From Antedon mediterranea (Eukaryota > Echinodermata > Crinoidea > Comatulida > Antedonidae), in contig NC_092676.1 of NCBI RefSeq assembly GCF_964355755.1, forward strand, positions 17,838,288-17,902,287: a stretch of DNA of 64,000 nucleotides. Reading direction: 5' to 3'. Positions 14,201-64,000 of the stretch are shown piece by piece. Below the pieces are notes generated by a model, which made no database searches, had not been told where the DNA came from, and saw only the letters and a program-made list of their open reading frames with translations. Both the position numbers and the translations under genes were made by a program. Each line of letters opens with the position of its first letter. Position 1 is the stretch's first letter.

Positions 14201-17200
14201 GAAAAGTGTCATTCAAAAAGAAGCTACTCCAAAACCTCATATTATGGGTAAGAAAGTAAAAATGCAGGATAAACCTTGTGAAAAATTGAGAACCGATAAT
14301 ACTGCTACTAACGGCAAACTAACACCAAGAATTCCGTCTGCACCAAAACCTACTGGTCCAGGGAGACCAAAGTATCACTACAAATCGCCAGACACATCAC
14401 CTCGTGTAAAGGATGAAAAATCAGAAAATGATAAAGAGAAACAAAATGCTGATAAATCTGGGAAGAATATTAAAGTCCATAACACTCCAGTGATCTGTGA
14501 TATGTTTGAAACTTTGAAGAGAGTTGAACAACCGAAAGGTGTTAAGATTATTCCTCAAAATACAGATAGAAAGAAAGCAACTATTAAACAGAATGTTCGC
14601 AACAATTCTGGAAACCAAAAGCGAAAATCACAAAGTGCAACAAAAGAAAAATCACTGAAGGAATCTGGTAAAGTTTTAATTAAAAGCAACTCTACCGTTT
14701 CTAAGAAAAAGAAAATTACAAAAGAGAAACCTGATAATGCTGCAAAGAATAAAGGAAAATCAAAGACTACTGTAAAGTACGAGAAAAAAGAAACAAAGAA
14801 GCCATTGAAGAAAGTTAAAAAGAAAAGTGATGACACAATGATAGTTAAAGATAGTGATATTGATACTACAGCATTTATATCTGGAAAAGGTTGGCATATA
14901 AAGACCAAAAAAAATGAGTCGGATAATGTAATAATCCACAACCATTCCTTGAAAGACGATTTATCAGATTCTGATGATGGTGTGAAATTGAGCCCTCATA
15001 GCACTCTAAAACTTCAGGAGATGGTAAAAATGCGTTCTATGACACAGGAACAAGTCTCGAATCTTGTAAATGTTATGAGTCCATTTGAGGCAAATACACC
15101 CAGATATATACCTAATACAATGGGAACAATTAAGCAGTTTTTTGTGAATGCTTGCAAAGACAACAATGGTACAGAATACTATGTTGACGACAATGAGCTG
15201 CCAAATACAAGGCAGTTTAGCTTTGAAGAAAAAGAAATGAAAACTATTTGTGAAGTGAAAGAAAGAGAGATTCTTATGAGAAAAAGAGGAAATAAAGATA
15301 TTGTAGAAGGTCCCGTAAATGAATTAAGTTCTAACAATTTACCAAGTTCTGAAGTAGAGAATTTAAGTATTGTTAGCGAATCAACATACGAGACTAATCC
15401 TGAATTTCTAAAAGTCTTTAAAATCCCTGACCATGTTGATAATGAAGAAGAAGAAGAACCAAATGCTTCTGATGTTGAAGAAATTGAAGTTGAACCTGTT
15501 ACTTTTATTGAAGAAGTAGTTAAAGAGAATGCAGATAATTCCATTGATGAAGGTAGTGATAGAAAATGTAATCAAGTTGATGATAAAATTCCTGATTCTA
15601 GAACTTCTTCAGCTAAAAGCAATGGAAAATCTGCAGTCAAAAACAATTTTGAAGATAATCTTGCCAATTTACCTCCTCTTCCGTCATATCAGCCAAAGAA
15701 ATTGCCAAAAAGTGCATTCAAGAAACGTCACAGTGAACCGGTAATGAACCCTTCACAAGAGAATTATGATGAACTTAATCAAGAATATTTTGATGAACGA
15801 GTTAAAACAAATTCAAATCGAGGACAAAGTGCCAAGTGCAATGAATCGAAAAAAGAAACAAATTGTAATTCTCATCTAGAAAATGACTTTACCAATAAAA
15901 CAGACATTGACAAAAGAAGCAAATTTTCAATACTTGATAAAAGAAATGAGGACAAAAATCTAGGTGATAGCAATGTTGTAAGAAACCTGTCAGAGTCTGT
16001 CTTTGAAGATGAAAGACATTCAAATGTTCAACAACCACCAAATGACCGTTACTTAAATGTCGTCGAGGGCACAGATTCTTCACCACCAGTTAAGTTGCAG
16101 CGACCATCTGAAGATACTGATTCTCTATCAGATGAAGATGACTTGTTAGGTGAAAGTCTTGCTCAGTCTGTTATGAGTGACATTTTAGAGAAGACATTCA
16201 GTGAAGCATCGAGGGCAGGATCATCCTGGTCTGCAGATAGTGTGGTTAGTATACTTTATTGTCTATCCATTTTAGACTCACAAGTATGTTTGTTACGCTC
16301 TCAAATTTAGAGATTTAAATTTCTGCTGTCAACTTGCTTATTGCCACATTCATTTTACATTTATATTGGTATTGGCATAAACCTCTTTGTGTCTTTTCTT
16401 GGAAGTGGAGCTGTAGATGCTTATTAGTTCAATTCCTCTCAGATGTCAGGATTTTTTTTCATGACAAAATAACTCCACTCTCAAGAACTTTTAAGCTTAT
16501 TCTGTGAATAGATTGTCAACAGCAGTATTTCAGGACAATGAAAACATTGAACAAATTTGGACTGCTTTGTGTATTTTTATACTCTTTTGATGATATACCT
16601 ATGTGAAATTTCAAGCCTTTCAATTTGTTGTGTGGATTTTTTTTGCAGACAAGAACAAGTATTCTTGGTAAAGGAAGGTCTCACTCAAGTCGAGTGAGTA
16701 GCAGTGACCGCAGTCAAAGTTCAAGTACTACTGTATCGGAACCAGAAGAAGAACTTTTACACTGGAAGAAAGGTAACATCCTTGGAAAAGGAGCATTTGG
16801 AAAGGTAAGTTTAATGTTTAAGTAGTCCGATAATATACATTATTTTAAACATCATGGGATTTTTCTTGTTCAGTAATGCCTAATCAATGATCTTAACACT
16901 GTAAATTACCAATTATATTTATATAATTTTTAAAAATAAGCAGTTTAACCAAGTCATTCTTAAGTCACTTGTATTTATTTTTTGCTTTAGGTGTATTGTG
17001 GTTTAACAAACACTGGTCAATTAATCGCTGTCAAACAAGTTGAACTAAGTGAGAGGGATAAAGTAAAATCTGAGAATCAGTATGAGAAACTTCAGGAGGA
17101 AGTTGAGCTTCTGAAAAACCTCAGGCATAAGCACATTGTTGGGTTAGTGGCCTAGTTTGTTCAAAATAGGAGTTTGTCTGAACTTTATTGCCATCCCCTC

Positions 17201-19095
17201 TCAAATTGCCACTCTTAATTATTACTATGTTATGATTATTTGTGTCTTACTGTACATTGTTTCGACTACTGTAGTAATTTCTCTTTCATTTGTTTTTTAC
17301 TAATTATTTGCTGTCAAAACTACAAGACAAATCTCTCTGATAATTGCACACAGGTTTCTAGGAGTATCACTAGAGGATGACACTGTTAACATATTTATGC
17401 AGTTCATACCAGGAGGATCAATAGCATCCCTTCTTGCAAGGTTTGGAGCTCTAGATGAACCTGTGTTTTGTCGATATACTAAGCAAATACTTGAAGGTAT
17501 TGAGTACTTACATACCAACAACGTTATTCATAGGTATGTTAAATTATAATTTCTTCAGTCAGTGTATAGTATGTAGAAGAGTTACCCTCTAGCTTTAAGG
17601 CATTAAGTGTAGAAACACTGTATTAACTACCTCGTACAAATTGTGAATGTTAAATGAACCAGTTGATAGCACAGGAATGTTTTTTAAACCATGTTTTCTT
17701 TAACATATGCAGATTGACATAAATAATCTTTTTAATTGGGAGTGAATTAAAAAAATGTTTGTTTTTGTTTTAGGGATATAAAAGGTGCTAATATCATGTT
17801 GATGTCAAACGGTGTAATTAAGTTGATTGACTTTGGGTGTGCCAAACGTCTTTGCATTAATCTAAGTCAAAGCCAAAGTTTGCTGACATCAATGCGAGGA
17901 ACCCCTTACTGGATGGCTCCAGAGGTAATCATGGAAACTGGTTATGGAACCAAATCTGATATATGGTATGAAATGTTTAAGTTGGTTTATGTTTTATGTT
18001 TATTTTACTTGACTTTTTTACCTGAATTGGGTACATTCAAATTAGGACTTCTACTCAAGGCAACCACAGTGCAGTGCATACCATGAACAACAGTGACTGA
18101 GATGGACCAGTACACCAAGGTAACCCCCTAATCTTCTGAAAGATGCACTGATTAAAGTTCAGACATGCCAGATGTGTACACTGAACCTCCAGTTTTATGT
18201 CCTTATCCAAAAATCTGCCACCAGAACATTGGTTAAGGGAACATTGAACCTGTGCCGATTCTATGGCTAATTGGTTTAACTACTCCACTACTTTTCACAT
18301 TTAAGAATTTAATGGTACTAAATTTGTTTTTGATTCCAGGAGCATAGGGTGTACTGTATTTGAAATGGCCACTCGAAAGCCACCTTGGGCAGAGATGCCC
18401 CCTATGACAGCAATATATTACATAGGTTCTGGTTCAGGTGCTGTGCCTCAGCTTCCTGATCAGTTCTCAAAGGAAGCAAGAAGTTTTGTTAGAATTTGTC
18501 TTTCAAGGTCAGTTGAACAAATTCTTTTGTTCTTATATCTTCTCTTTTCAAAAGCCAGACAGCTATTTATGTTAATACACCTTTATTCATGGTTTAAACA
18601 AACTTGAATTCTTGTGATCTTTCTGGATACATAAAATAGTCTAATATGAAAAATAAATGCAATTGTAGAAATCAGATTGGCATGTGGTAGGAAGCATTAA
18701 AGTTTGAGGTCTGGAAAAGTGTTTCTGTGCCATAATAGGCAAGATTCATTTACCCTTTCAATATGCTGCTGCACAATAAGGACATCACACTTTCGGGATG
18801 CCATACAATTGTGTTGCAGGATTGTTTAAGTGCTACATTTTAAAATTCCTAAAAAAAACTGTGTGAATAATTGTGATTACATTTTGTATATAGAGATCAA
18901 CATGAAAGACCAACTGCCAGCAGTTTATTGAAGCATGCTTTCATCAGAAGACGTAAAGAGCGAGGGCGTGATAGATTCAGTACACGAATATCATCGTCTA
19001 CTTTTGAAGAGGGTAACATCAACTTCAAAGAGAAACCAAAATCTGATGGTGCGACAGACAAGAATGCCAAAAAACCTATTTATGATTTTAGTTAA
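5254..19095 (+). CDS. MAP3K19: ankyrin-repeat MAP3K19/YSK4-like serine/threonine kinase
   Basis: Eighteen exons join in phase: 5254-5278, 5796-6034, 6290-6559, 7042-7135, 8713-9032, 9622-9751, 10009-10158, 10467-10563, 10840-11045, 11321-11414, 11802-11980, 12364-16244, 16649-16804, 16991-17142, 17354-17533, 17774-17965, 18340-18507, 18894-19095. They total 6,735 nt, or 2,244 residues. The start ATG (AAAATGG) follows an in-frame TAA at 5227. Residues about 60-360 are ankyrin repeats, about 400-1930 are Ser/Lys-rich and disordered, and 1934-2205 form the kinase. The kinase has GKGAFGKV, ATP-site Lys1962, HRDIKGAN (Asp2059), DFG (Asp2077) and GTPYWMAPE. Insertions and motifs such as VYCGLTNTGQLIAVKQV and RDQHERP match vertebrate MAP3K19, an activator of the JNK/ERK pathways, as I remember it. 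Human MAP3K19 is about 1,330 residues and, to my knowledge, has no ankyrin repeats. The kinase call is firm. Joining the N-terminal exons to it is inferred from phase. Confidence 0.88.
6575..6640 (-). mobile_element. SINE/LINE 3' tail fragment
   Basis: On the minus strand this reads TGTAAAGCACTT, then about 15 bases, then GGTGCTATATAAGA, followed by an AT-rich stretch. This is the typical 3' tail of SINEs mobilised by L2/CR1-type LINEs. It lies in an intron just after the exon ending at 6559. The body is not identifiable. Confidence 0.5.
7375..7564 (-). mobile_element. tRNA-derived SINE, internally deleted copy
   Basis: This copy matches the SINE at 33733-34032, with a deletion in the middle. 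The right end, read on the minus strand, contains GTGGCCGAGTGACTAAGACA, a degraded A box, next to the CACTCACTCACT repeat. It lies in an intron of the MAP3K19-like gene. Confidence 0.7.
9343..9478 (+). mobile_element. Ty3/gypsy reverse transcriptase remnant
   Basis: A short open frame encodes VLVAKKDRTKRFCLFYRELN and then ACFSTLYL. These are the first conserved blocks of a gypsy-type reverse transcriptase, with the usual linker between them shortened. The remnant is inside the intron between exons ending 9032 and starting 9622, on the gene's strand. No other pol domain or LTR is visible nearby, so it is a dead fragment. Confidence 0.75.
12060..12272 (+). repeat. (TA)n-flanked dispersed repeat, copy 1
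   Basis: About 170 bases starting GCACTGATGAAGGACTAGTG and ending near AATTTGCCTTTGGATTTA sit between two (TA)n tracts. The same unit occurs twice at 57139-57470, again bounded by (TA)n. This copy is in the intron before the giant exon. The GATGAAGG and CCGAAAGC words resemble 3' termini of Penelope-like retroelements, but the assignment is open. Confidence 0.75.
12364..16244 (+). other. giant 3.9-kb disordered exon of the MAP3K19-like gene
   Basis: A single 3,881-nt exon encodes about 1,293 residues of low-complexity Ser/Thr/Lys/Asn-rich sequence with acidic patches and no folded domain. Three short islands look constrained: PVICDMFETLKR (near 14485), an FISGKGWHIK block (near 14873) and FEANTPRYIPNTMGTIKQFF (near 15084). 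The first two recall short motifs N-terminal to the kinase in vertebrate MAP3K19. The donor is GTTAGT after 16244 and joins in phase 0 to 16649. Confidence 0.85.
16649..18977 (+). other. protein kinase domain exons
   Basis: Six exons encode a complete STE-group catalytic domain from WKKGNILGKGAFGKVYCG to LLKHAFIRRR. All catalytic residues are present: the glycine loop, the VAIK-type lysine in LIAVKQVE, HRD, DFG and the APE motif. The domain is therefore predicted to be active. Intron phases within the kinase are mostly 2. The remaining C-terminal tail is about 40 residues and basic. Confidence 0.92.
18020..18290 (-). mobile_element. diverged copy of the tRNA-derived SINE
   Basis: Words in the same order as the 33733-34032 SINE are present: CCAGTACACC, GGTAACCCCCTAATC, AGATGTGTACACTG and GTCCTTATCC. 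The tRNA-like end is degraded. The copy sits in the kinase intron between 17965 and 18340. Confidence 0.6.
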
Positions 19096-25039: not shown

Positions 25040-28000
25040 ATGAGGTTAGCTTGTCTACTTGCGTTGTGTGCCATTGTTAATGTGGTATACATGAAACCAG
25101 TTGTTAAAGAGGAAGATTTGAGTGAAGAAGAGGATGAAGATTTGGTAAGTTAAAGAGATGGACTATATACAGTAATGATATTACAATGTTGTAAATAACT
25201 TTAAAATTATAGTAACCATTCTTGATGTGTGATTATAAAACATAAAAAAACATTCATTGTTACTATATATTGATACTGTAGACTTTTTAAAGTATATACA
25301 TTATTTAAAATAACCTTATGACATTGAATTAGTGTATCCATGTTTTATAAAAAAATGAAACATGCTACTGGCACCAGAGCACCTTAAATATTCTCAGCCA
25401 TTCATAACAACCAAATGGCACTAGATAACAATTTTAATATAATTTACATAAATCCTTGTTTATATCTGAAATGTCCGATTACACAGTCCCAAATGACCAG
25501 TGTGTACGCTGCAAATTTGTTGGGTCAATCTGGTTCAACAAACCACCTCTGAATTAAGACAGAGAATTTAAAACTGATGATGAATGCTTATTAACAAAGT
25601 TTTTCAAAACAAATCCTTATAATAGAAATCACAATAGTTGGGAATAATGTACTGTGAGCTCACTTTTCCTGTACCCAAGAAGACTTTTAAGATCAAACAG
25701 CATGGATTTATAGATTATATTGTCCATGCTTCCTTTAGTGAATTAATGTCAACTGGTGAAAGAAAATTAAATGTTCTCATTGCTGACTGATTGTCATCTT
25801 ATCTTCAGCTGTTTTTGTATTTCTTTTATCTACAGGATACTGGACTGGAATATGACAAATATTTGCGTCAAGTTATTAACATTTTAGAAAAAGACCCTGA
25901 GATGCGGAAGAAAATGGAATCTAGTAATTTAGAAGATTTAAAAGTAATTCTTTTATTATTTTTATGGTTTATCTAGATCTTATATTTTTATCTAATCACA
26001 AACAAAAGCCCTCATGCTTAATGCTTACAGACCAATCGTTGTTTTGATTAACATCCAATCAAACATAAAAGTGATATTTTAAGTGATCTTCCATCTCGCT
26101 CTACAGATTCAATTTCTTATAATTGTGCAGAGATGTTTGTAAGTTAGTGTACTCTATGATTTGTTCATGCTTTTATAATGTTATTAAATTTGTTCAAGCT
26201 GGGACCTCTGATTACATTATTTTGCAAATGTGTACAGAACAGTTATTAGTTATCCGCTTGGTATACCAAGCGGATAACTCCTTGTGATTGTATGAGATCA
26301 ACAGTTTTTTTCTGTATTATTCTTCTTTCCATCCTTCCTTTTTGTGGATCGCGTTTCTCTAAAATGTGTAAACATAACATTTCTTAACTTTGACAACATA
26401 TGGGCATTTACGTGAAGTTGTGCACCTCCTATTTTTGAATGACGTCATAGTTACGCAACGTGACTTACGCGCAATTTTATGAACTAGATGGTCGTGCCCA
26501 CAGATGGTTCTCGAATACACAGTAATTTCAGCGTAACAAAACTGGCGATTTCAAATGTACGTACCGCAGGACTATAGGCCTATACATTGTCGTTTACAGA
26601 AACGAATAAATTGACACGATGATTTATGTAGTCAACTAAAATTAGCACCCTGGGAATTACTTCCGAAGGAGAAACTTATCACAAAATGAGTCCAAGTTTT
26701 TGATTTGGACTCATTTAAAGAAACCCAATTTGTGTTTTGTATGTAACATTAGGGTTGAGGGATGGGAAAGCGGATAGGTACAAAGAGGAACAATTTTTAA
26801 ATATATTCTTTATCCACTCAGTAACGAAATATTTTTTTCATGTTTTATAGGCCTATAAATAATATACCTCTAAATACAGTAAAACATTTGCGATTTAATA
26901 CTTTTTTTATTTTATTTATTTATTTATTTATTTTAAATATTCATTGTACACTAATTTTCCCCGTGTATGGCAAGAGATTCCTAATTATATTAGAGAACAT
27001 TCTTTATTTAGTTTAGTTAAAACTGTCACTGTCATAATCGATTGAAATATTAAAGTACCATGTCACGATACACCACTACGACGTTTATATTTGGTAATTA
27101 TTAATTAATACAAACGTTGAGAAAGAACTGTCAGTATAAAGTTTATTTGTATATAATAATGTGTTTATATATCTAACAGTAGAGCCTATCCACAATCTCG
27201 CAAGTTTATTCTCAAAGGGCCCATATATTTACCTACCGTATGTGTTAAACCAAGGGCTCATAAATTTACCTACAGTACTTGTGTTAAACCAAACTCTGGC
27301 AGACTGAGAGATTGGGATGTTCCATTCATCGCAAATCAATAGATTTGTATAATCGTATATTAAATCTATCAAAATAGTATTTTTTAAAGAAAATCGGCCT
27401 GTCTTCAACATTATGATGGTGTACTCTAGCTGTTCAACCGGTTTTCAGCTATTAAAAACAATTATCGTAGGAGGAGATAGGAAAATGCGAAGCCTCCTCG
27501 CATTTTTGTGGCGGGTATTTTTCAAGACGGACATCCATTATACAGTGTATACCACGGTTGGAAAACACCCCTATTTGGGGCAAATCTTGGAACCTAAATT
27601 CGTTTTAACCGTCAATAACTTATTATCTAACTTAATTTAATTAGTAAACAGGGTTACATCAGGTGGTTAAAATCAGTACCGAAAGTACGAACCAACTTTA
27701 TATACCATCGAGTAAAAATTATAGAAGTAAGGCACGATTTACCGAATTTTGCCCTTACGTAAATTTATATATAGATTTCAATGATTGATCATAGATTAAA
27801 AACTAAAAGTCATTTAGTATTGACACTTTGACAAAATTTAAGTCATATCAGGGGCAAACTTTCTACGGATTAAAAATGGCATGTTTCACAAGAAGTTACG
27901 CGCGCACGCGCATTTAAAATTTCAAAATGCGCAAAATTAATTTCTAATCAACTTTTTATGCGTTTCTTGTCATTTTGAGCATGTCAAAAATTCCCACGGG

Positions 28001-31000
28001 CGCGCAATTTTTTACGCACGCGGTGCGCACGTAGCGTTAAAAACATATTTTTTTCTCTTGAATTATATTTTTCAAGCCTTTCCTAGTAATTTTGAAAACA
28101 ATTTAGACCTTTTCCAATTTAAATAACGCCATACGAACACGTTGAATTAAACATTTCATGCGCGTTTTTTATGAAAAAGCTTAAAAAATCATCAAAATTT
28201 TGTCTTTTTTTAAACAGTCATAGTTTCTAAAGTAAACCGTGAACCGTTTATTTTTATTACAAAATCTAGAAGTTGATGAGTTGTAGATAACGGATCATGC
28301 ATCGATAAGGCTAAAAAAACATTGTGACGTCATCGTATGGCCACACGAATGTAAAATATAGGATTTTTGTCTCTTTCGTTATTGCTCATCACATTCAATG
28401 GAGCGCATCACGCTTATCTGTATTCCTTTTTCTCCTACATTTATATATTGTGTAGGTCAATCAACTTTCTTTAGCATGAGATAAAAATATTTTAATTTTT
28501 ATGACGTCATCATGCCTAAAAATTTCAATTACGTGGGTCATTAATTTCATCTTTACAGTAAATTTTATTCTGTAATAGCTCGTAAGAATAAAATGTGATA
28601 ATCACGATTAAAACGTTTTCTGGAAGCTATTGGATTGTAGATACGAATTCATGTAAACATTTTGCCAATCGGATGTTGTGACGTCATCATATGGCCAGTT
28701 GAATAAAAAAAGTCGTATTTTCATATTTTGCGTAATAGTTCATCACATTTAAAAGGGTGCGCATCTATATTTTACGTATTCAAATTTCTTCTACACGTTA
28801 ATATGTTGTTCCCAAGATAATTTCCTTCTGAAATTGCTATCTAAGTGTTTCATTTTGATACCGTCGCCATGTTAAAAATTGGAATAAATGGCGGGTCCCG
28901 TAATTTCACCTATTCTCTACACTGTATGTAATATGTATACAGATTATACTGTAGTGTTTGCATGTATATACTATATGACATAAAATTGACAGAATTCAGC
29001 ACTAACAGCATATCATATTCTTCAGTTCTTGTCATAATGCCATAATCTTTATCTGTGTGCAATATTCCAACGTATGACGTGCACGTGGCGTTTATCGTGG
29101 TGCGGATAACTAACTCGTCAAACTGACGAGTTTCATGTCTAGTTAATTTATTTTATTCAGTTCACAACCAACAGCGATAAAACCGCCACTAACAGGTTGA
29201 ATCTAAACATAATAAACTATAATAATTAATTCAAATAAGCAACAATAACATAAACAAAGATTGAAACATTATAGAAATTTATCAATTTTACCCTTAAATA
29301 CATTTAAACTATCATAAAATAAATCAATATCCAAACAAGTAACAAGCAGACTATTAAATGTGTTAGGTAATCGCTGAAAAGTACCTCGTTTTGTTGTCAC
29401 GTCAAGGAATTGGTGCAATGCTTGTACAGTAGGTATAGGTTATAATGATGTGTTAAGCACTACATTTTCTACCATGCTATACAATTACGTTTAGCTAAGG
29501 TACATCATACATTGTGTTATTTATTATTGTACAGAGTGGCAAGCTTTCTTTAGAGTTAGATCAAATGCCAGGTCACTTCCGCAGTAAACTTGATGAACTT
29601 AAACGTATGGAAGTACAGCGACTAAGACTCGTTGCTAAGCAAATGATGGATCAAAAACAAGGTATGTTCTATTCTCTCCTGTGTTACAATTCAGGTTGAC
29701 AAATCTCAGGTCTGTACACTGGTTGAGATGAGATATGGGGCGGGGGGTTACAAGACTCATTCTCTTTCAGTAATTCCATTTACTGTATTTCTTTTTCTAT
29801 GAAAACTTTCATTTCTGACCCAGTATAAAGTCCGGTATGCAGGATGCAACCTTTACAGCCTCGAAATTGCTGGTTTTACAATTAAATAGAATTTTGTGAC
29901 GTGTAGTGTTATTGTTAAGCTACAAAAGAAAACAAGCACATGAGAAATAACATTATCTAATATTAATAACTATCCATTATATTGGTATTGGTCTAGTGCA
30001 ATTCTGAGAAATGGTGTGTCCCATGGATTGGTTAAACCAAATAGGAGGTACATTACACCTTCTCTGTCAATTCTTTGGTCAGGCCAAAAAGTGTATTAAA
30101 CCCATTTCAGTATGTTTAAACAATTATATTTATTTGTTCATTACTTATTTATTTGTTTATTATTTGTTTGCTTTATTCATGCGGTACAGTATTGTTAGTC
30201 ATTTTACCAGATTTACTTACTTTATGCAATTATTAATTTATGTTTTTTATAATTTTAAGTTAAAGGATTCATAGATATTTTAAAAAAAGGTTTGTCATAC
30301 GATATTACTGTACATTAGTTCTCCCCGATCCTTTTCTGTTTATTTCCTTTAAAATATTCTTTACCATATATTGGTATTTTAATTTTGGTGAATTTGATTT
30401 TATAACTTATATTAGAAAATTTTATTTTTAATTTTCTAACTCTTTTTTAAATACTATATATATATATATATTATCTTTTCTACTTTTTTCATATAAAATT
30501 GACGAACAATGGCATTTTTTAAAGCACAGACTTTCAAATATGTTTTTTCAATCAATTTAATATTTTCTTTCTATGGAACTTATAAAACTTAATTTTTTAT
30601 TTATTAAATTATTTATTATTATTTCATACAACATGCACAAAGGACGCCCTGTTGGCAACATTCAAAACCTAATCGGCCATGTGGATATTAACGCCCGTGA
30701 TAATTTTAGTATACAAGACTTCCAAAAATTGATTTTAAAGGTATCGGTGTAAACTGTGTGGTACCAGATTGCACACATATATCATCATTAATGTGACCAT
30801 TGATAGTACAGAACACTCTCTATAATTCAAGATTAGTCATTCAATTAGAAAATTTAAATTATTTTTTGTTAAACATCATTTGTTGGTTAGGCACATATTC
30901 CCTGTTTTTTTGCACAGTACTGTACACACAAAGCAAGTTACGAACCCTTCAGTTATATATTCTTATCCAGGAAAAGGTTGAGGAGTGCCTTGAACTTGTG

Positions 31001-34000
31001 CTGATATAATATGGCTATGGTTTGCGGCATCTCTTTGGCAGCTACAGTAGTACCTAGGAAATCAGGTCATCATAAATCCTAGATAGATCATATCTTAAAC
31101 CAACAAACACATAACAAACACATTATTAATTTTGTAATTGAAAAAGATATGGCCATATGTAGTACTGCTATATCTCCATCTTTCGACTTAGTCTTTTTAG
31201 TCAAGCTTCTTTGCATGCTCTCAACATGACGTCACCTGATCATTGAAAAATTAAAACGACCTTGTAAACATTTAAATTTAATTAATAAATTGAAGTAAGA
31301 AGTTCAATTACCTTCCATATTTAAGCTGACCTTGAATTGAGAAGTGTCCTGTACTATTTAGTTGTAACTACCATGCTAGTTGTTTTTTAATTGTTGAATG
31401 CATTTAAACACATTTCCATTTAAATTTTCTATAAAATTCAGAAAACTTTATTTATATTTTTCAAATTTTTTTACAAGTCCTTCTTTACTATTTCACTTAA
31501 AGAAATAAAACTCACAATTTATGCTGTGAATCAGAATAGCTGTTTTTAAAATTAATAAAGTAAGGTTTGTGGTACACCATGTGATCAAGTAAAGATGAGA
31601 ATGTCCTTTAGAGTGAAAGTTGAGGCAAATATAAGCAACCACATTGTTCATTACTAAACATAGACTGGCAGGTGTGAACTGATCGATTTTACTTTTAGCT
31701 AATTTTTTTATAACTATTTTGTACTTTTTGGTCTAGTATGAATTAACAAGCCTGGTTTGCCTTGGTTCACACAATGCCAGCCTAGCAATGACCAATACAT
31801 TGGGTTATGCTTGCTTACACTTGCCTCAAATTTACTTTCTAGTATTATATTCCAGAAGTGTAACAATTGTGTAAAATTCTCTATTTTAAAAGCCACGGTA
31901 TACCATAAGTCTTACTTTACTAGTTTTCTTCACCATGCAAACCTTTAATTTTTTTAGAAAAATAAACAAAATGTCATCAAAATTGTATTATAATCATCTG
32001 TGGATCGTTCATTCACACTGTGTTGTATTTGATATTTGCATGCATGTGTTATGTTCTTGTTAATGTAGGCATCCCAGGATCCAATCCTAAAGAACTTTTT
32101 GAGAATCTTGTTGGACATGTAGACCCTAAAAGTCCTGACACTTTCAACGAAAAAGATCTTACAAATTTACTACGAAAGGTAAACATTTTTGCAAAAATGC
32201 ATCATATATTATTTGTTTCACAAAGATTTCTGCCAAATAATTAACATTGTAGACCCGGTTAGATCAAGACACAACTTTGCTCCGATTACTAGCTGCATTA
32301 TGAGATTGAGAGTTTGATCCAAAAAAACAAATGACAGGGTAATAATGTGAAGCGCTTAGAAGAATTGTGCAGTAAGCGCTATATAAAAACGAATATTATT
32401 ATTTAACAAATTCCCTGAAGCATTAATTGTGACAAAAAGGAATGTAACGATATATTTTGTGGTTTCCCTGTTATACTGTACTGTATGCATGAAATTCATA
32501 CATATTGTGTTTATCATTGAATGTGATATAATTTATAAGTTTTAACTGAGACAAAATTTGGACTTAAGAATGCAGGCATCACTTTTGAAAGATGTACTTT
32601 GACCTTTGACCTGCATAGGCATTCAAAGGATTTCCATTTTACAAGAGGCATGTTCGAACAAAGTGCTCTCATTTACATCATAATGTGTTTTGGGAATTTA
32701 AAGTTAATTTTCTGTTTTATAATAATAATTTTGTATTCAGGCAACGAAAGATTTAGATGCTGCAGATAAGAAAAGACGAGAAGAATTTAAAAACTATGAA
32801 ATGGAAAAAGAAATTCAGAGACGAGAACAACTAAAGAAATTAGACGAACAGCAACGTGAGGCTGCTGAAAAGGAATTCCAAGAAAAGAAGAAGAAAGCCA
32901 AAGAACATGACAAAATTAAGCATCCAGTAAAATACTTTTATTTTTGATAAATTCTTCCATTAAGACCACTAAAGGCCCATTTACACGAGGACAATAACGA
33001 TCGACAAAATTGTAATTATTTGTAACTACTGTGGAGTAGTTTTCTTCCATTAAGACCACTAAAGGCCCATTTACACGAGGACAATAACGATCGACAAAAT
33101 TGTAATTATTTGTAACTACTGTGGAGTAGTTTTCTTCCATTAAGACCACTAAAGGCCCATTTACACGAGGACAATAACGATCGACAAAATTGTAATTATT
33201 TGTAACTACTGTGGAGCAGCTTTCTTCCATTAAGACCACTAAAGGCCCATTTACACGAGGACAATAACGATCGACAAAATTGTAATTATTTGTAACTACT
33301 GTGGAGTAGCTTTCTTCCATTAAGACCACTAAAGGCCCATTTACACGAGGACAATAACGATCGACAAAATTGTAATTGTTTGTAACTACTGTGGAGTAGC
33401 TTTGTGTCAGGGTGTTGAGTAAATTGTCAGATGTTTTGCCCTACTCTGACGTAATTTGTACTTCAAACGATCGACAATAAATAGATGAAAAAAAATGCGT
33501 TTTTCTTACATAAAACAAAAGAAATCTAAACATTGTTCATCCTAGAACTATAGCATAACCATCTATGCTGCCTTTGGTGGAAATAATGTTTGAACACGTC
33601 CAATCAAGTGACGTCATGTGATACAATGATTTTATTGTTCTTATTGATCATGATGTAATTTGATTGGATTTTCAAAGATATTAATTCCTTCAAAGACACA
33701 GTAAATGGTTGAATTGAATTGAAATTTATATTTATACTGGGTAACCTCTTCAGTCTAAGACTGGTCTCCCAGAGGGCCCAGTTGGTGATCAGTGGCTGTG
33801 ATGTACTAATACACCGGGGTAACCCCCTACTCGTCTCGAAAGATGTACTAGGTTCTTTAAAGTGCACACGAGCTAGATGTGTACACTGGACCTACGGTTT
33901 ATAGTCCTTATCCGAGAAGACTCGTTCTACCACCAGAACCATGGAGTGAGTGAGCCTCGAACCCCTGCCGATGTTTTGGCTACGTAATTACGGTTCCACT

Positions 34001-37000
34001 GTCTTAACCGCTCGGCCACTCACTCACTCACTATCCTGAAAACTTTTCTAATTACTTTTATTTTTTGTAAGAAAAATGTATGTTTAACTATTTATCGTCA
34101 GTCGTTAAATGGCCCTTGACTGATTACAGCTCACTTGAATGATCTTGGTGTTGATGTAAATATGCTCAAATTAAGGACTTGTAAAAACCACATCCTGATC
34201 TTTTACCACACACAGACTGTATTTAACGTTTAATAAAGGACTACAATATATTGTACTACACTAATATAGCCTCTGTTTTCTCTTGGTCAATGCTATTAAT
34301 GGCGTGGGCTTAACATCATACAGTACCACTACTTCAGGAAATTACCAATAGTATGTAAATTAGATATTGTAAATTTATTTGTAGGTATAACAAACACTGA
34401 AGCATTTTAAACAATTATCTTCAACTGAATAAATTTAATTAAAAATAAATGTGGTATATAGTAATTTTTTTCTTTGTACTAGGTACACCAACACAGGTGT
34501 TGTTAACAATGAATTGTTTTAAATTGTGTTTTCAGGGTAGCAAGGCGCAACTTGAAGAAGTATGGGAGGAAACAGATCACCTTGACAAGGAAGATTTTAA
34601 CCCAAAGACGTTTTTTGCCTTGCATGATACTAATGGTGACGGCAACCTTGATCCATTTGAATTAGAAGCCTTATTTATTAAAGAGGTAGAGTAGAATGTA
34701 TAACAAATCTATTGCTTGTTTAATTTTTAAATGTATCCATTCCTTTTTATGTGATGCAATTGTCGTTCACAACAAGCCCGCAGTATTCTAGTACTAGTGA
34801 TGTTAATTGTTAAGCTAACAATCCCACAAACTAAACAAAAGACATTTGCGAACCGCTCGTTTTCGTTGCTGAAACAAGAATCTACAACAATTTGCCAAGT
34901 TACACTAAACATTTGAATGACTATCATTAGTTTAAAGACTTTTTATTGTAACCAATGTTATGACAGTAAAGAGTATCACGGTGCTGACGTCACGACGGTA
35001 GGTGGCGCTGCGTGGTTGCTAGCGCAACCAAAAATGCGTTCAGCCTGCCTGAGTGACGCCAAGATCACCAATGGTTTGGAATAGGCTTATTGAAGTAGTC
35101 ATTTAAAACTTCATAATTTTCAATAAAAACAAACTAAAATTTTAAAAGATCACTAAATATTTGTTTTTAATAATCTATTCTTCAGCTACAGTTTAAGTTT
35201 AAAAAAATCAAGCTAAGATACATAATTTGATAGAAATACAGATCTTTACTGTTTATCATCATAGTAGCGCTGATCGCATTTTTTGGTTGGCTAGCAACCA
35301 TGCAGCGCCCTTTATTGTTGTGATGTCACACCGTGATACTCTATGTGAAGTGCCGCTGATTAAGCTTACCATAGAAATGGGTGCTATATAAGTTTTAATG
35401 TATAATGAAAAAATTATTTTAAAAAATAATAATTTAAAAAAATAAAAGATATGTACATATTACATACATTAAAGGAATTTGTTGACTATTTATCGAAACA
35501 AAAACAATTACATTTGTTTAGGTTGAAAAAATATACCAAGAATCGAATGCTGATCCTAAAGAGAAGTTTGAGGAACTGGCCAGGATGAGGGAACATGTTC
35601 TGCGTGAGGTACAGTAATTCCTCTTACTCTCAAGCCTAATCATTGTTTATTCAAAAAACCTCTAACAATCGAGAGAAAAAAAACAAATACATTTAATATT
35701 AAGAGTAGCTCCTAGTTTATTTTTATTGTACTTATATAATAAACTGTATTTGAACATGGTTATGAAGTATGTTGACCATATTCTTTTCAGATTGACACGG
35801 ATAAAAATAAATTGGTGAGCAGGGAAGAGTTCATGAAAGCTACTGATGAGAGCGAGTTTGACAATGACGATGGATGGGAGGTAAGCAGTTGATAAATTGT
35901 TGTCGATTATGTAGAAGTATATGTATATATATGTTTATTTGATTATTTTTATACATACCCAGCTGCTACATATTCTGTACTGTATTTCCACATATAGCAT
36001 TTTATGTACAGTATCATAGACTTCTGTAAAACAGTGTCATTTATGTATTACATGTTACGCATGTATCTTAGGCCATAAGCCTACCATTTTACAGCTGCCA
36101 CATGTGATACATATGTGACACAGTACTGCAACATTTGCCTATGATATTGAACACATAGATTCAATACCAACTTATTTTGGACAAGTGTTTAATTATCATA
36201 AACTATCTCCTCCCCGTAACTTTTTTGTTTGGGGAGGGGTGTTCTGGAATGACATGCTAAAAAATTGTATGGTGTCTCTAGATTAATTCACTTTATGTGA
36301 AAATGGAAACAAAAAATAATAATTGTTTTAAAGTTTTGTTTTAAGTTTTTATTATTTTTTATTTGATATTAAATTCAAGGATGTGTTACAGGTAAGAAAT
36401 TATAGAATAAAATATTAAATCTGAAATTCAATTTATAATTTTATTTCTTCAATGACTTTTTTAACCTTTATTCCCATCTACAATTTTTTTTAATATTTTT
36501 TTTTTTACTTTATATGCTTTTGGTTCTAGTATTTTATTAGTTGGGTATAGAATTTAAATACATTTTTTTTTATATTTCCAAACATAAAGTCTTACAAGAA
36601 TTCCTAATTGCTTACTAGACCTATTAGTTAAAATTAACTTTTTTGGAGAGGTTAACATTTATTTATAATGCTTTTTAATCATGATAAGTCTTACAAGAAT
36701 TGCTTCCTAGGCCTATATTAGTTTACCTTAACTATTTTAACACCTACTCAGTCAAATGTGTATTGAACTTCTTTGGGGAGGTTAAAATTTAGTTATAATG
36801 TGTGAGTTTTAAAGTTTTTAAGTATCTAGGGACAAACAAGAGGAACTATATGTTTTAACCCAGCCAACCCCTATTCAGAGAAAATATTTCTATTTATTGT
36901 TTTAGGATTTTATTTATAATACACACTGTATTTTTTTTTTTCGTTTGGCTAATAAATGATGGTTTAGTTTAGATTGTTTAGAAATTATTGATTGATGGAT

Positions 37001-40000
37001 TTTATTTTGTAGGACCTACAACAGGAGGATATGTTTGAGGAGGAAGAATTGGAAGGTTATGAAAAGAAAATGCAGGAACGTGAATTAAAGCGACAACAGC
37101 AACGAGAAGAGTTTGAAGCGCACAAAGATAAAATAAGAGAGGAACAGGAAAACTTAGCAAAAAATAATCAAGTAAATGAACCAGTTGCTATGGACCAGGT
37201 AAATAACAATACATCGCTTTGTTTATAAAGATTAACATAGCTAGTATTCTACTCAGTACTCTAGGGTTCATAATTATCATGGAAATTTGTTGCAATCGAA
37301 AATTGAGATCAATAATAGGAAAACCCATACAGAGAAATACAAAGTGGTCCTCATAGTAAGCCAGGGGTGTACCTAAAAAAGTGTGAGGATACGAGGGTGT
37401 AGACAAGTTAATAATGGATGGGGAAAACCCAGAGGTTTCTTGAGTTGATGCTGTGCTTAAACTAAGCTGGTTGGAAGGTTTAAAATATTAAGGTCTAGGC
37501 TTGATAGAAGATGGTGAAGGTCAGTGTTTGCACCCACCTACATCCACTTATGTTGTCAAATTTTGAGAAATTATTTCTGAAATGTATATTGACAAGTTGA
37601 AAACCTATCGCATTCATACATAAGGATAGATCCAAAACTGATTTAGTGATTAGGGTGGGTGACCATTGATTTACAAAATAGACACAATCTTTGAATATGA
37701 CACTAGGTAAAACAAGTCAATTGGATACACTAGCCATGTCTATGAATGACTAAGACACAGTATTGTTGGAAAAGACTCATGAAATAGTTTTTCCAGCATA
37801 TACACTTACTATTTTGTATTGATCTATTTTTTATGTAGGCAGCTGCAGAGAAGAAACTAACAGACATTCAACAAGGCAGTGATAAACTTCAATTTGACCC
37901 AGCTGCTAATCAGGTTGAAAAAAATCAGGTATTATACATTTATTTTTTTAGCTTAGTGCTACTGAGCACTGAACTGTAATGTCTTGAAAAACAACAACCA
38001 AAGATTTGTTTATGACTTTATTTTAATGTAGATCATCTAATTGTGATCGTATTTGTCTTTTTACTTTCACTGTGATATTATTGCTATAACCTCATAAATG
38101 TTTACATAATCAATTAGAATGCTGTTTATAAATTGGAGTTCGTATTATACAGATATTGACTGCTTAGAGGTTAAATATAAGATTTGACATCCCCGAGGGA
38201 ATGATATTAAGTTCGAGGGAATATATATTTCCGCCACGATATAAAAGGCAATATCTGTTATATTATATAGCCAAGAACAAGTCTGCTTGGTTGGGTGAAG
38301 CTAGGTTAGGCCTCCTATAGTATTTGTATTGTATTTAAACAAGCCTGCCTAGACACCTTACCTTGCGAAGAATAATATACAGATAATTACTAATTAATGA
38401 TTCCTTGGCAATAAAATATTCACTTAGGCCTAGGTCGTTTAAATTAACAGAAGAATTTCCATCAATAAGCCTATTAAAAATAATAATATTATAATCAGGT
38501 AGGCCGAATAAACAATTCGTCTTCTTTTCTCGATCTTCGAGGAGCCGCGAATCACCGGATGTTCAGCGCGTACTAGGTTACTACCGTGAGTATTGACCAA
38601 TCACAAACGGTGTTTCATCACATTTAGGGTGGACTTATAACAAATGAGGGCGCTATGTATGCATAGTTTAAATAGTTTAGATGATTAATTTCTTCAAGCA
38701 ACTTCCGTGGCGCAGCGGTTGAAGCGTTGTCTTGCGATGGAGTGACAATTCCACCCGAGTTCAAGATCGAGTAGATGACTTTTGTTTATTTATCGGCAAC
38801 GCGAGTGTTGGCACACGAAAATTACACAGTCAATATCATCGTACTCGAGAATCTATATGTTTAATGACAGGGGACACGATAATTACGCGAAAATTACACA
38901 GTCAATATCATCGTTCTCGAGGATATATACGATTTACGATCCTTGCAGCGGTAGTCATGTGATGCAGTTTCAACCAATCACGTTAGCGTATTTACATAGG
39001 CTATGTAATATAAGCACATACTACAGAAGCGTATAGTAAACCAACCATTCATGTTGAGTCTGGCCCACACTACCATTTTGGTTCCCGATTATATCACTCA
39101 ATTGATCTGTATATTCATTGAAATATTATACAGTAGTATAATCTCTAAAGTATTTTTCGTGCGCATTAAACTTTCACGAATTTTGTGAATGATTTAAATA
39201 CACAAACGTTTCATGCCGTAGATCATTTTCAGGAATTGAGTACGCAAAATATAGTACTACTACTATATATCTACTACTAATAAAGTGATCTTTTCTTTAT
39301 CGCGTTCTTTTTTCACAAAGGACGTCACATTATTTTGCTAAGTGAGAATATGTGCTCTTGTTTCTTTACTGTATTTACTACTGCCTCCAGTATCGTCTTT
39401 ATAACACGAAGATCTTGTATACAATGGTTGACGCAATCTTTACTACAATGGATTACTGTATTAGTGCAGACTACATGCATTGAATTGAAACACCATGGTT
39501 ACGTACATGATTGATTGACACGATGTTGTTACATTATTTACTTGTAATTTATTTTTAAAAATTTTTTCCTGTCGCTAAAGTGACTGATGAAACCGTTTCG
39601 TGAAAGTTTCATATCACAAAATTGTTGGTTTTGCAGTATATTGAAGATTTTACTAATTGTGATATTTCCGCCACTTAGTGATTCATGTGGAGTCTCGCCC
39701 AACAACCATTTTGTTCCTCTGCTAAACCAAGGCTATCAAACAACACAACACAAAGTGTCACTGTTATTTGATAGCATGGCTAAACACTAAATTTTGTATG
39801 TGTATTCAAAGATTATACAATAATAATAGGTAATATCTCTATGGTATCATTTTAAGTAATTTTACTAATTGAGATCATAAAGCTAATCATGCTTTTATTG
39901 TTGTCTTTGTTAATAGTAAACAATCAAGAACAATCAATAGGTATATGCTTTGTTTATAGTTGTTTATTTTCTTTTATATATACTGTTTGTTTTGTGTACA

Positions 40001-42530
40001 TTTTATCCTGCTTGCACCCTATAGCACTTACATAATAGGCATTTCATCTTAATGGTTTATTTTTCATGTTGAATAAAAACCTACCTACGTGTTACAAGGG
40101 TTTAATGTTAAAAACATTAACCTCTTAAAATTACATTATTATGATGACATTTCTGAACATAAACCCACAGTTGTTTAAAAAGTATGTACAATTATTGGAA
40201 TTTACCATTTTTGCATGTTGACATCTATGGCTATGTTCAAACTAATAGAGTTATATACTTGACGTACACATATTTGAAACTGACATTACAGATTAGCATT
40301 AAATATATTTAGATGATCTAGACCAAAAAAGAAGTTATCATACACCTTTTTTTAGATTACTACTTTTTTCACATGTGCATAAATTGTAACCAGGTTTGAT
40401 TTCCTGATTTATTACACATTTTATACACATACATGTTAATACCAGGGCAATGCACGCGCACGCAGTAAGAACTCGGAACATCTTGGAACAAACCATAACA
40501 AACACAGGATCTCTCATCAGTGTGTCACAAAAGATTTTCCACAAAATTGTATTCATATAGGTTACATGGTTACAACTTCTTACATTTTGCAATGTGAAAA
40601 GGAACGCAGTGAGTTTGAACATAGCCTAAAATCAGCTTTATTGCGCTCCAGATACGCCACAGTTGATGATGCAATATTACTGTAACATTTTTTTCTTAAA
40701 TTTGGTTGCACTCACACTATCTTATATTTATACATCCATTAATATACTCATTTATTTTACAGTTTACTTGAATATTAAAATGAAGATTCACTGAATATTT
40801 CAGTGACATAACCTGTTTATTAATCAAAGACCGTTTTAAAGTTATTTATTTATTTGAGTTGAATAAATGACATATTAATTGATTTACCATTTATTTCATC
40901 TTATACCTTACTTCATACTTCATTCTATTGTTGCATGGATGCGAGTGGGAAATTGTTGTTATGTGTGTGATTTGTTTTAATCGTTTAGTATTTTGAAATA
41001 TTTCCTTACAATTTCCTTATATTTGAAATGACCTGTTCATAAAAACATCCTGCAACTGTGACTGTAAAATAAATAACGGGTAGTTAAGACTATCAGTATA
41101 CATTGCTTGGGGGGCAGAACATAAACAATCTATTTGCTCCTTTTGAAAATTAGAAACTTTTACTACACAATCATTGTTAGGTCCTTATTGGTGGAATTTG
41201 GTGGCAAAATATAACATTGAATATCGAAATGATACTAATTTAAATCTGATCTTAAAATCGTAATTTGTTTAAAAAATATTATTCCATTGTCATTCTCGAT
41301 ATTATAGTTAATCTAAATATTTACATTTCAACTACAGTATTAATGTTTGTTTTTCTGTACAAAATACTATCAATTATTATTAATGTGAAAAAAGAACATA
41401 TTTCAAGATGTTTGCAATGTATTGCCACGACACTGTCTGAATGTGTGTCTAAATAATAATTAAACATATTCAATGCTTTAAAATTAGGTTTCATCAAAAC
41501 AAACCGTTTATACTAAACAGATATTTTGTAGTTTTAGCATTAATATATTTCTTGCAGTGTTTTTTAATAAGCTAATTAGATATAACTAAGTATTACAATA
41601 GTAGTTTATTTATAGTTAAAAATACTTGGTTTTACGCATGTTGTGTATAAAATATTTCTGTTTAAAAATGCATGAATTATACTATAAAATGTATGAATAT
41701 GTAAGTGATTATTCCGCATACCATAACAAATGGAACTCCTTTGTATACACATTTAAACTTGGAATATCAAATCAAACTGATACAAGCAATACAGCAACCA
41801 TTCATTAGTTATTTGCGTATTTTTAATTATTGGGACCACGATATTTTACAAAAACAATCTAGCATACTTGGTTTGGTAGACAAGTACCGTAATAGAAAAT
41901 ATAGATGGTACTGTATGATAATGGGTCTATAAATTAAAATGTATAGATCCATGGTATGATACTGAATGTTGGTTAACAAATAATTTTAACTGTTTTTAAT
42001 TTTTGTTTATATTAAAGGCTCAACCGATAGTTAACCACGAAGCTGTCAAATTACACCAACAAGCTAAAGTAAATGAGGGGCAACCAATTCAGAACGATGA
42101 TAATTCAATACAAAACAATCAAATCCCACAAGTGATAGAAAAACAACCACCACCACAGGCAGGACAACCACAAGCAGGGGAACCACAGGCAGGGCAACCA
42201 CCAGCTGGACAACCACAGGCAGGACAACCACAGGCAGGACAACAACAAGCTGGACAACCACAGGCAGGACAACAACCACAGGCAGGACAACAACCACAGG
42301 CAGGGCAACCACAGGCAGGGCAACCACAAGCAGGACAACCACAAGCTGGACAACCACAGGCAGGGCAACCACAAGCAGGACAACCACAGGCTGGACAACC
42401 ACAGGCAGGACAACCACAGGCAGGGCAACCACAGGCAGGACAACCACCAGCTGGACAACCACCAGCTGGACAACCACAGGCAGGACAACCACAGGCAGGA
42501 CAACCACAGGCAGGACAACCAGTCCCGTAA
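25040..42530 (+). CDS. NUCB2: nucleobindin (NUCB1/NUCB2 family)
   Basis: Eleven exons join in phase: 25040-25144, 25836-25943, 29535-29661, 32069-32178, 32741-32926, 34536-34685, 35522-35608, 35791-35880, 37013-37198, 37839-37928, 42018-42530. They total 1,752 nt, or 583 residues. A signal peptide ([16 protein letters not shown]) opens the protein. Then come the nesfatin-like region ([33 protein letters not shown]) and a basic helix. Two EF-hands follow: [12 protein letters not shown] at 243-254 and [12 protein letters not shown] at 293-304. A Glu/Arg-rich coiled coil precedes a Q/P-rich tail. Nucleobindins are Golgi/ER-lumenal and secreted calcium-binding proteins that also bind G-alpha subunits. 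Both EF loops keep their calcium ligands. The protein is longer than the human one (about 420-460) because of the QAGQP array in the last exon. One pro-ortholog for NUCB1 and NUCB2 is expected in an invertebrate, so the symbol is approximate. Confidence 0.94.
26248..29142 (+). mobile_element. Helitron-like non-autonomous element in nucleobindin intron 2
   Basis: The right end has the layout of a Helitron 3' terminus: hairpin AACTCGTC-AAACT-GACGAGTT (29112-29132), six bases, then CTAG (29139-29142) followed by T. Just before the hairpin is GCGGATAACT (29102-29111). Its complement forms a perfect 32-base palindrome at 26248-26279 (halves AGTTATCCGCTTGGTA and TACCAAGCGGATAACT), so this probably marks the left end. 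I find no Rep/helicase coding. The exact 5' end is not proven. Confidence 0.6.
28318..28930 (+). repeat. degenerate long-period tandem repeat inside the Helitron-like element
   Basis: Two diverged units begin GTGACGTCATCGTATGGCCA (about 28323) and GTGACGTCATCATATGGCCA (about 28678). Each is followed by a CATCACATT word and a GCGCATC word at similar spacing. A third TGACGTCATCATG word lies between them at 28501. The period is about 355 bases. Confidence 0.55.
29150..29210. repeat. dispersed repeat fragment, copy B
   Basis: It contains CCAACAGCGATAAAACCGCC and ACTAACAGGTTGA. The reverse complement matches the first 75 bases of the window. It lies immediately downstream of the Helitron-like 3' end. 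Confidence 0.65.
30643..30740 (+). CDS. candidate alternative exon 4 of nucleobindin
   Basis: A 98-nt open segment between AAAG and GTATCG encodes [20 protein letters not shown] and then [12 protein letters not shown]. It resembles annotated exon 4 ([20 protein letters not shown], then KDLTNLLRK). Both begin in phase 1 after exon 3 and both end in phase 0, so either one can splice between exons 3 and 5 without a frame change. No stop or frameshift is present. The acceptor lacks a strong pyrimidine tract. It may be a mutually exclusive exon, or a duplicated exon no longer used. Confidence 0.6.
32255..32403 (+). mobile_element. short SINE with L2/CR1-type tail
   Basis: The body contains a degraded B-box-like GAGAGTTTGATCC at about 32309. 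The 3' end reads GTGAAGCGCTTAGAAG, then AAGCGCTATATAAAAACGAA and an ATTATTATT tail. This tail is typical of SINEs mobilised by L2-type LINEs. It sits in a nucleobindin intron. Confidence 0.65.
32952..33401. repeat. 90-bp minisatellite, five units
   Basis: Five head-to-tail units of exactly 90 bases start at 32952, 33042, 33132, 33222 and 33312, with very few differences. Each contains CCATTTACACGAGGACAATA and ACGATCGACAAAATTG. The array begins 25 bases after the splice donor of nucleobindin exon 5. Since 90 is divisible by three, the minus strand has a long false reading frame. Confidence 0.95.
33733..34032 (-). mobile_element. tRNA-derived SINE, most complete copy
   Basis: Read on the minus strand, the 5' end is AGTGAGTGAGTGAGTGGCCG, continuing AGCGGTTAAGAC (A box) and, about 40 bases on, GGGGTTCGAGGCTC (B box). 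This resembles a Ser/Leu-type tRNA head. The body of about 200 bases follows and ends with a CCCAGTATA word. Other copies or relics are at 7375-7564, 18020-18290 and 49571-49800. Confidence 0.82.
34970..35342. mobile_element. MITE with long terminal inverted repeats in nucleobindin intron 6
   Basis: The left end reads AGAGTATCACGGTGCTGACG. The right end in reverse complement reads AGAGTATCACGGTGTGACAT. Similarity continues for about 70 bases through GGCGCTGC(G/A)TGGTTGCTAGC. The interior is AT-rich and non-coding. The target duplication is not clear. Confidence 0.82.
38703..38965 (+). mobile_element. tRNA-like SINE candidate
   Basis: The head carries TCCGTGGCGCAGCGGTTGAA (A-box-like) and CCGAGTTCAAGATCGA (B-box-like), about 70 bases overall, as in a tRNA-derived promoter. 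Behind it, the block CGAAAATTACACAGTCAATA with TCATCG(T/A)(A/T)CTCGAG occurs twice, 71 bases apart (38817 and 38888). It lies in the long last intron of nucleobindin. Confidence 0.6.
42157..42525 (+). repeat. QAGQP coding minisatellite in the nucleobindin tail
   Basis: About 24 units of the 15-base repeat CAGGCAGGACAACCA (with variants CAAGCTGGA and CCAGCTGGA) encode QAGQP, with rare [16 protein letters not shown] and QAGQQ forms. It occupies the last 120 residues. Unit variants recur in patches, as expected from slippage or unequal exchange. Confidence 0.95.
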
Positions 42531-62514: not shown

Positions 62515-63165
62515 AAACCTAGAAACTATCTCCGTCAAGTAAATTAATTGTGCTCATGTGGGGACATTTAGGGGATGTTAGGATACTCAAACTAGTTACA
62601 TCAAGTTAATTAATTGTGCTCATGTGGGGACATTTAGGGGATGTTAGGATACTCAAACTAGTTACATCAAGTTAATTCATTGTGCTCATGTGGAGGATGT
62701 TAGGGGACTCAAACTAGCTCCGTCAAGTTAATTCAATCATTGTGCTCATGTGGGGACATTTAGGGTATGTTAGGATACTCAAACTAGTTACATCAAGTTA
62801 ATTCATTGTGCTCATGTGGGGACATTTAAGGGATGTTAGGGGACTCAAACTAGTTACATCAAGTTAATTAATTGTGCTCATGTGGGGACATTTAGGGGAT
62901 GTTATTGAACTCAAACTAGTTACATCAAGTTAATTCATTGTGTTCATATGGGGACATTTAGGGGATGTTAGGGGACTCAAACTAGCTCCGTCAAGTTAAT
63001 TCAATCATTGCGCTCATGTGGGGACATTTGGGGATGTTAGGGGACTCAAACTAGTTACATCAAGTTAATTCATTGTGCTCATTTGGGGACATTTAGGGGA
63101 TGTTAGGGGACTCAAACTAGTTACATCAAGTTAATTAATTGTGCTCATGTGGGGATGTGCTTCCT
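62515..63165. repeat. 66-bp tandem repeat array
   Basis: About ten units contain CAAACTAGTTACATCAAGTT, AATTGTGCTCATGTGGGGAC and ATTTAGGGGATGTTAGG. A variant with CTAGCTCCGTCAAGTTAATT and a four-base insertion (CAATCATTG) recurs about every fourth unit. The first unit is diverged. Confidence 0.93.
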
Positions 63166-63299
63166 CACTTGATTTTTGTACACACTTTTGGTGGATACTA
63201 CATCCAATGATAAAATGTGCTAGGTTTTCACAAATCGGAAGCTCCCTATTATCATTCAATTCTCGGTACTGTATCCAGATTTCTTCAATTTCATAAGAA

Positions 63300-64000
63300 A
63301 ATTTAGTGATACAGCATCACATGTGTATCGCCTAGTTTTATAAACCATAACCTAACCCTTAACGTAACCTTCCATGATACAGCATCTCATGTGTTACACA
63401 TGTATCGCCTAGTTTCATAAACCTTAACGTAACCTTCCATGATACAGCATCTCATGTGTTGCACATGTATCGCCTAGTTTCATAAACCATAACCTAACCC
63501 TTAACGTAACCTTCCATGATACAGCATCTCATGTGTTACACATGTATCGCCTAGTTTCATAAACCTTAACGTAACCTTCCATGATACAGCATCTCATGTG
63601 TTGCACATGTATCGCCTAGTTTCATAAACCTTAACGTAACCTTCCATGATACAGCATCTCATGTGTTGCACATGTATCGCCTAGTTTTATAAACCATAAC
63701 CTAACCCTTAACGTAACCTTCCATGATACAGCATCTCATGTGTTACACATGTATCGCCTAGTTTCATAAACCTTAACGTAACCTTCCATGATACAGCATC
63801 TCATGTGTTGCACATGTATCGCCTAGTTTTATAAACCATAACCTAACCCTTAACGTAACCTTCCATGATACAGCATCTCATGTGTTACACATGTATCGCC
63901 TAGTTTCATAAACCTTAACGTAACCTTCCATGATACAGCATCTCATGTGTTGCACATGTATCGCCTAGTTTTATAAACCATAACCTAACCCTTAACGTAA
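63300..64000. repeat. satellite array with alternating 77- and 65-bp units
   Basis: Units contain CCTTCCATGATACAGCATCT, CATGTGTTACACATGTATCG and CCTAGTTT. Long units (77) have an extra ATAACCTAACCC and carry TTACAC. Short units (65) lack it and carry TTGCAC. The order is L S L S S L S L S L, then the window ends. Neighbouring units are nearly identical, so the array is young or homogenised. Confidence 0.93.

Follow-up and report, generated by a model that had tools for sequence, protein, structure and literature searches.

A putative pair of mutually exclusive exons 4 in the nucleobindin gene of the crinoid Antedon mediterranea

The nucleobindin (NUCB) gene of Antedon mediterranea probably carries two versions of its fourth coding exon, 4a and 4b, that would be used one at a time. 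Exon 4b is the exon 4 of the first-pass annotation. Exon 4a, located upstream of it, is best viewed as a used mutually exclusive exon (MXE) that belongs with 4b to an old tandem-duplicated pair, and a probability of about 0.78 can be given to this reading. The expression of the gene might then be described as follows: exon 3 would be spliced to one of the two versions, itself joined to exon 5, whereas mRNAs that contain both versions or none of them would be removed by nonsense-mediated decay. The swap would concern a segment of 33–37 residues that directly follows the KR of the presumed nesfatin-1 boundary and precedes the basic helix. The features are listed in Table 1, where positions are those of the window, i.e., the whole stretch of 64,000 nucleotides that was analysed.

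Table 1. Location of the two versions of exon 4 and of the related features of the NUCB gene in the window.
Feature	Positions	Strand	Remarks
NUCB coding span, ATG to stop	25040..42530	+	manual gene model
Exon 3	29535..29661	+	ends in phase 1; carries KLDELKR
AG-free zone before the 4a acceptor	30531..30640	+	111 nt (script count)
Exon 4a, candidate alternative exon	30643..30740	+	98 nt, 33 residues including the split Gly
4a-4b intron	30741..32068	+	1,328 nt
AG-free zone before the 4b acceptor	31958..32066	+	109 nt (script count)
Exon 4b, exon 4 of the first-pass annotation	32069..32178	+	110 nt, 37 residues including the split Gly
Exon 5, acceptor exon common to both forms	32741..32926	+	basic helix

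The host gene is a nucleobindin. It includes 11 coding exons if a single exon 4 is considered (12 if 4a and 4b are both counted), and either version leads to a single open frame, of 579 aa with 4a or 583 aa with 4b. The protein encoded by exons 1–9 harbors both the NUCB1_N domain of Pfam (118.4 bits with 4a and 117.9 bits with 4b, for a cut-off of 27) and EF-hands (EF-hand_7, 33.1 bits for a cut-off of 30), and the N-terminus of the protein, read by eye, is hydrophobic. The first two introns of the gene are in phase 0, in agreement with the two phase-0 introns found in the nesfatin-1 region across bilaterians (PMC9004410). A search of the genome (354-Mb assembly of 18 contigs, the window being located on contig C7) using the NUCB1_N profile retrieved two exons of this locus above the cut-off and, elsewhere, one match of 18.3 bits that is below the cut-off of 27; neither 4a nor 4b was among the matches listed. 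As only one locus is above the cut-off, NUCB is taken as a single-copy gene, within the limits of this search.

Two tandem repeats were observed within the gene. In the last exon, a QAGQP-type tail is encoded by ~24 copies of a 15-bp repeat (42152–42521), and its length possibly differs among individuals. In the intron located 3' of exon 5, five nearly identical copies (98%) of a 90-bp sequence are found in tandem (32952–33403).

In the window, NUCB is preceded by ankyrin and kinase reading frames (6290–18086) and followed by a frame that bears a PI3K_C2 domain (59675–59935); four of the nine frames that were scanned had no match. The ankyrin and kinase frames are MAP3K19-like. Human NUCB2 likewise adjoins PIK3C2A, and the linkage between NUCB and PI3K_C2 may be old. 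Long tandem-repeat arrays made of units of 55–57 bp and 65–77 bp are located toward the end of the window (57939–58664 and 62523–64000). Elsewhere in the genome, 19 of the 80 myosin-head matches listed correspond to the same stretch of the profile (from 342/343 to 407–409) and lie at separate places within ~5.5 Mb of contig C3 (~19.6–25.1 Mb). Although restricted to the best-scoring candidates, this observation suggests that muscle-type myosin heavy chain genes have undergone a large expansion on this contig. A search of the assembly for COX1 retrieved no match.

The first-pass annotation had described an open 98-nt segment located 1.3 kb upstream of exon 4, with the same splice phases at both ends and encoding a diverged copy of the exon 4 peptide, and this description was borne out. 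The segment lies exactly at 30643–30740, between an ag followed by GAC and a gt preceded by AAG, and the measured distance to 4b is 1,328 nt. Both versions are flanked by AG and GT, begin in phase 1 and end in phase 0. Their lengths differ slightly (98 versus 110 nt, i.e., 4 aa apart), and their peptides can be aligned over a gap-free block of 26 residues, 11 of which are identical.

The fit of the two versions to the nucleobindin family is very similar. For the stretch encoded by exons 3–6, the NUCB1_N profile gives 60.5 bits with 4a, 59 bits with 4b and 36 bits with neither. Ten decoys put in the place of exon 4 (intronic open segments drawn at random from 30 non-overlapping ones) only lead to 32.9–42.3 bits, the score obtained with 4a being 18 bits above that of the best decoy. 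When each exon is considered alone, the scores are 15.4 bits (E=0.023) for 4a and 14.9 bits (E=0.031) for 4b. As 4a matches the score of 4b while the decoys score lower, 4a appears to bear the family signal of the exon 4 position as fully as 4b does.

Among the 26 aligned codons of the two versions, 16, 18 and 9 agree at the first, second and third positions, respectively, and nine of the 11 identical residues are encoded by different codons. The value of pN is 0.30 whereas pS is saturated, the protein being partly conserved; such a saturated synonymous divergence predicts that 4a is present in relatives. Neutral drift was simulated from 4b with all change on one branch and indels ignored, so that the results are a guide rather than a likelihood: none of the 4,000 copies retained the frame, the splice dinucleotides and the score at 0.75, 1.0 or 1.5 substitutions per site (0/4,000 each), and 1.6% retained all of them at 0.5 substitutions per site.

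The rival explanation that survives best, although improbable, is that 4a, after a long period as a working alternative exon, has recently gone out of use and persists as an unspliced relic. A recent loss could leave few traces, as 46% of the simulated copies of 4a still look intact (frame and splice sites retained) at 0.1 substitutions per site and 21% at 0.2. It would also agree with the weakness of the 4a acceptor, whose proximal tract contains fewer T than that of any other NUCB acceptor (4 of 16 bases), and with a codon usage that gives no clear coding signal, 15% of 670 overlapping open non-coding segments scoring at least as high as 4a. However, the frame, the AG and the GT of 4a are all retained, and its family fit, as high as that of 4b, is uneroded. 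A working exon 4a appears preferable to a relic.

Each of the two versions has a length of 2 mod 3 nt. Joining 4a to 4b leads to a stop inside 4b and skipping both leads to a stop early in exon 5. Since both the inclusion and the exclusion of the two exons shift the frame, the full-length protein would only be obtained from one-at-a-time inclusion. The mutually exclusive use of exon 4 proposed by the first-pass annotation is thus favored by the matching phases, the equal family fit and the frame logic, all deduced from the sequence; the location that it attributed to the swapped segment within the nesfatin part has to be revised (see below). The early stop caused by the joint inclusion of 4a and 4b would also suit a poison or cassette exon that is included beside 4b, the resulting frameshift serving to reduce NUCB expression. 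This is less probable still, as a poison exon does not need a family-like peptide, yet 4a has retained one.

Several scans indicate that the similarity between 4a and 4b stands apart. Among 1,561 open same-phase AG..GT candidates of 70–140 nt from both strands, 4a has a score of 60 against 4b; the six rows above it all overlap 4b, and the next unrelated row only reaches 31. According to PMC3228551, MXE candidates are defined by a length difference of at most 20 aa, compatible splice sites and reading frame, and a relative global score of at least 15%. Exons 4a and 4b differ by 4 aa, their splice sites and reading frame are compatible, and the score of 4a amounts to 28.8% of the self score with the split Gly or 26.6% without it. 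Among 2,814 same-phase open AG..GT candidates from both strands of the window, 4a (two rows that differ in their 3' end) is the sole place outside of 4b that reaches 0.15.

The introns that flank the nine internal NUCB exons were surveyed in the same way (18 intron scans and 239 candidates, six scans having none), and no other row exceeded 0.007 among the best two rows of each scan. In the intron upstream of 4b, the best two rows both correspond to 4a, and the scan of 2,814 candidates bounds the rest of this kind at 4.5%. At the genome level, a search with 4a as a query only retrieved its own place, and 4a was not among the matches listed for a search with the 4b peptide. No relatives were found in one scan each of genome-contig and viral-contig collections. 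A chance intronic similarity or an assembly artefact, which might be suspected from the short peptide and from the Pfam E-value of only 0.023 for 4a alone, can hardly be envisaged, as 4a ranks first among the candidates that do not overlap 4b with a wide gap, exceeds the best of the ten decoys by 18 bits in context and is too diverged from 4b for a misplaced haplotype copy, while 4b alone does no better (E=0.031).

The mutually exclusive use of 4a and 4b would imply a choice between two acceptors, both of which are preceded by long AG-free zones (111 nt for 4a and 109 nt for 4b versus 21–69 nt at the nine other NUCB acceptors). Only nine of the 687 AG-AG gaps found in the NUCB introns are at least 100 nt long, these two zones included. 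When the neighbouring intron is modelled as a first-order Markov chain, the probability of such a zone is 0.009 for 4a (0.046 with the nearest 300 nt) and 0.002 for 4b (0.004 with the nearest 300 nt), both zones having been examined post hoc, in a sequence already seen. In human genes, long AG-free zones point to candidate distant branch points and are associated with more frequent cassette-type alternative splicing (PMC1431707). Distant branch points enforce exclusion in alpha-actinin and OGDH, often across short introns (PMC9177970, PMC7969005).

Since the intron between 4a and 4b is 1,328 nt long, simple steric exclusion is unlikely here, unless the branch point is close to 30740. The choice would more likely depend on regulators combined with the frame filter, and the long AG-free zones found at both acceptors, as at some regulated exons, might participate in it. 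A selection by RNA pairing between introns was not supported: in a crude whole-intron test, 40/40, 40/40 and 33/40 shuffles had a duplex stability at least equal to the real one.

The other features of the splice sites are shared with further exons of the gene. The 4a acceptor has an A at position -3 (AAG), as does that of exon 11, and a G at +5 is absent from the donors of 4a and 4b and from six of the nine other NUCB donors; splice-site strength was compared within the NUCB gene. A strong acceptor-like sequence, cctttaatttttttag, was read by eye at 31941–31958; it extends to 109 nt before the 4b acceptor, where it forms the start of the 4b AG-free zone.

The KR of the KLDELKR sequence encoded by exon 3 is taken to be the nesfatin-1 boundary. 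As exon 4 follows this KR, the swapped part would be the start of the nesfatin-2-like region; it does precede the basic helix, as stated by the first-pass annotation, which had however placed it in the nesfatin-like part. When compared with solved structures, the 4a form joined to exon 5 aligns with EF-hand 2 of calmodulin, with one chain at an E-value of 0.0023 (0.092 for its best single stretch) and most other calmodulins at 0.12–0.68; a designed ankyrin protein comes second at 0.056 (best 60 of 99 rows). For the 4b form joined to exon 5, the alignment with calmodulin has the same register (E 0.087–0.9), the unrelated structure 3e0z coming first at 0.048. With a profile of both forms, an ankyrin protein is first (E 0.011) and calmodulin next (0.02).

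The peptides encoded by exons 4 and 5 did not match any EF-hand model of Pfam, and NUCB1_N was their only match at E≤10, in a search where few matches above E ~0.1 pass the HMMER filters. When the loops are read by eye using the EF-loop ligand rule, acceptable ligands are found at positions 1, 3, 9 and 12 in 4a and at positions 1, 9 and 12 in 4b. The membership of this segment in the EF-hand family was not accepted, and only a resemblance was retained: both versions of exon 4 appear to weakly resemble a degenerate EF-hand. It can be hypothesized that the likeliest effect of the swap would be to alter the binding of a metal or of a partner by the exon 4 segment.

MXEs are already known in Ca2+-binding proteins, i.e., alpha-actinin (PMC9177970), OGDH and calumenin (CALU; PMC7969005). 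As proposed here for NUCB, the MXEs of chick alpha-actinin are duplicated exons, one of which is chosen, in a Ca2+-binding EF-hand protein (PMC9177970). However, they encode the Ca2+-binding domain itself, whereas the NUCB segment is EF-hand-like, and they involve short introns and distant branch points, whereas 1,328 nt separate 4a from 4b in NUCB. Exons 4a and 4b of OGDH are likewise a two-exon MXE pair, whose swap alters an EF-loop-like Ca2+ site, and a long AG-free zone likewise precedes an acceptor (PMC7969005). In contrast with NUCB, OGDH is a mitochondrial enzyme, the pair is found in vertebrates, and the exclusion is enforced by distant branch points that have been mapped close to the 5' splice site. 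CALU provides an MXE pair in an EF-hand protein of the secretory pathway, like NUCB, but belongs to the CREC family and has an intron of only 73 nt between the two exons (PMC7969005).

Vertebrate NUCB1 and NUCB2 and the single-copy NUCB of invertebrates belong to the same family and share their domains and the two phase-0 introns of the nesfatin-1 region, but vertebrates have two NUCB genes rather than an exon pair (PMC5627052, PMC9004410). As a single NUCB gene is found here, and as NUCB is single copy in invertebrates and present in two copies in vertebrates (PMC5627052), the comparison with vertebrate genes made by the first-pass annotation may not apply. A literature search, whose coverage excluded most subscription papers, retrieved no mutually exclusive exon pair in NUCB, and none is described in the available parts of PMC9177970, PMC9031102, PMC5627052, PMC9004410, PMC11521371 and PMC11506743. 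The splicing event of mouse NUCB2 mentioned in PMC9031102 is a skipped coding exon, whose effect is given as unknown. Exons 4a and 4b of NUCB are a strong candidate for an addition to the known MXE pairs.

Nesfatin-1 has no identified receptor (PMC9004410), and nesfatin-2 and nesfatin-3 have no assigned role (PMC5627052). A natural alternative that has been kept for a long time for a precursor segment of 33–37 residues would hint at the function of this segment, and 4a and 4b would supply a ready-made pair for assay. More tentatively, and with a rather low likelihood, this single-copy NUCB might swap a degenerate EF-hand module right behind nesfatin-1, giving two secreted forms that would differ in the binding of Ca2+ or partners or in the way the nesfatin-1/2 boundary is processed. 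If true, the exon swap would be the exon-level counterpart of the gene duplication that led to NUCB1 and NUCB2 in vertebrates. If 4a is used, nucleobindin would join the Ca2+-binding proteins that are tuned through exon swapping.
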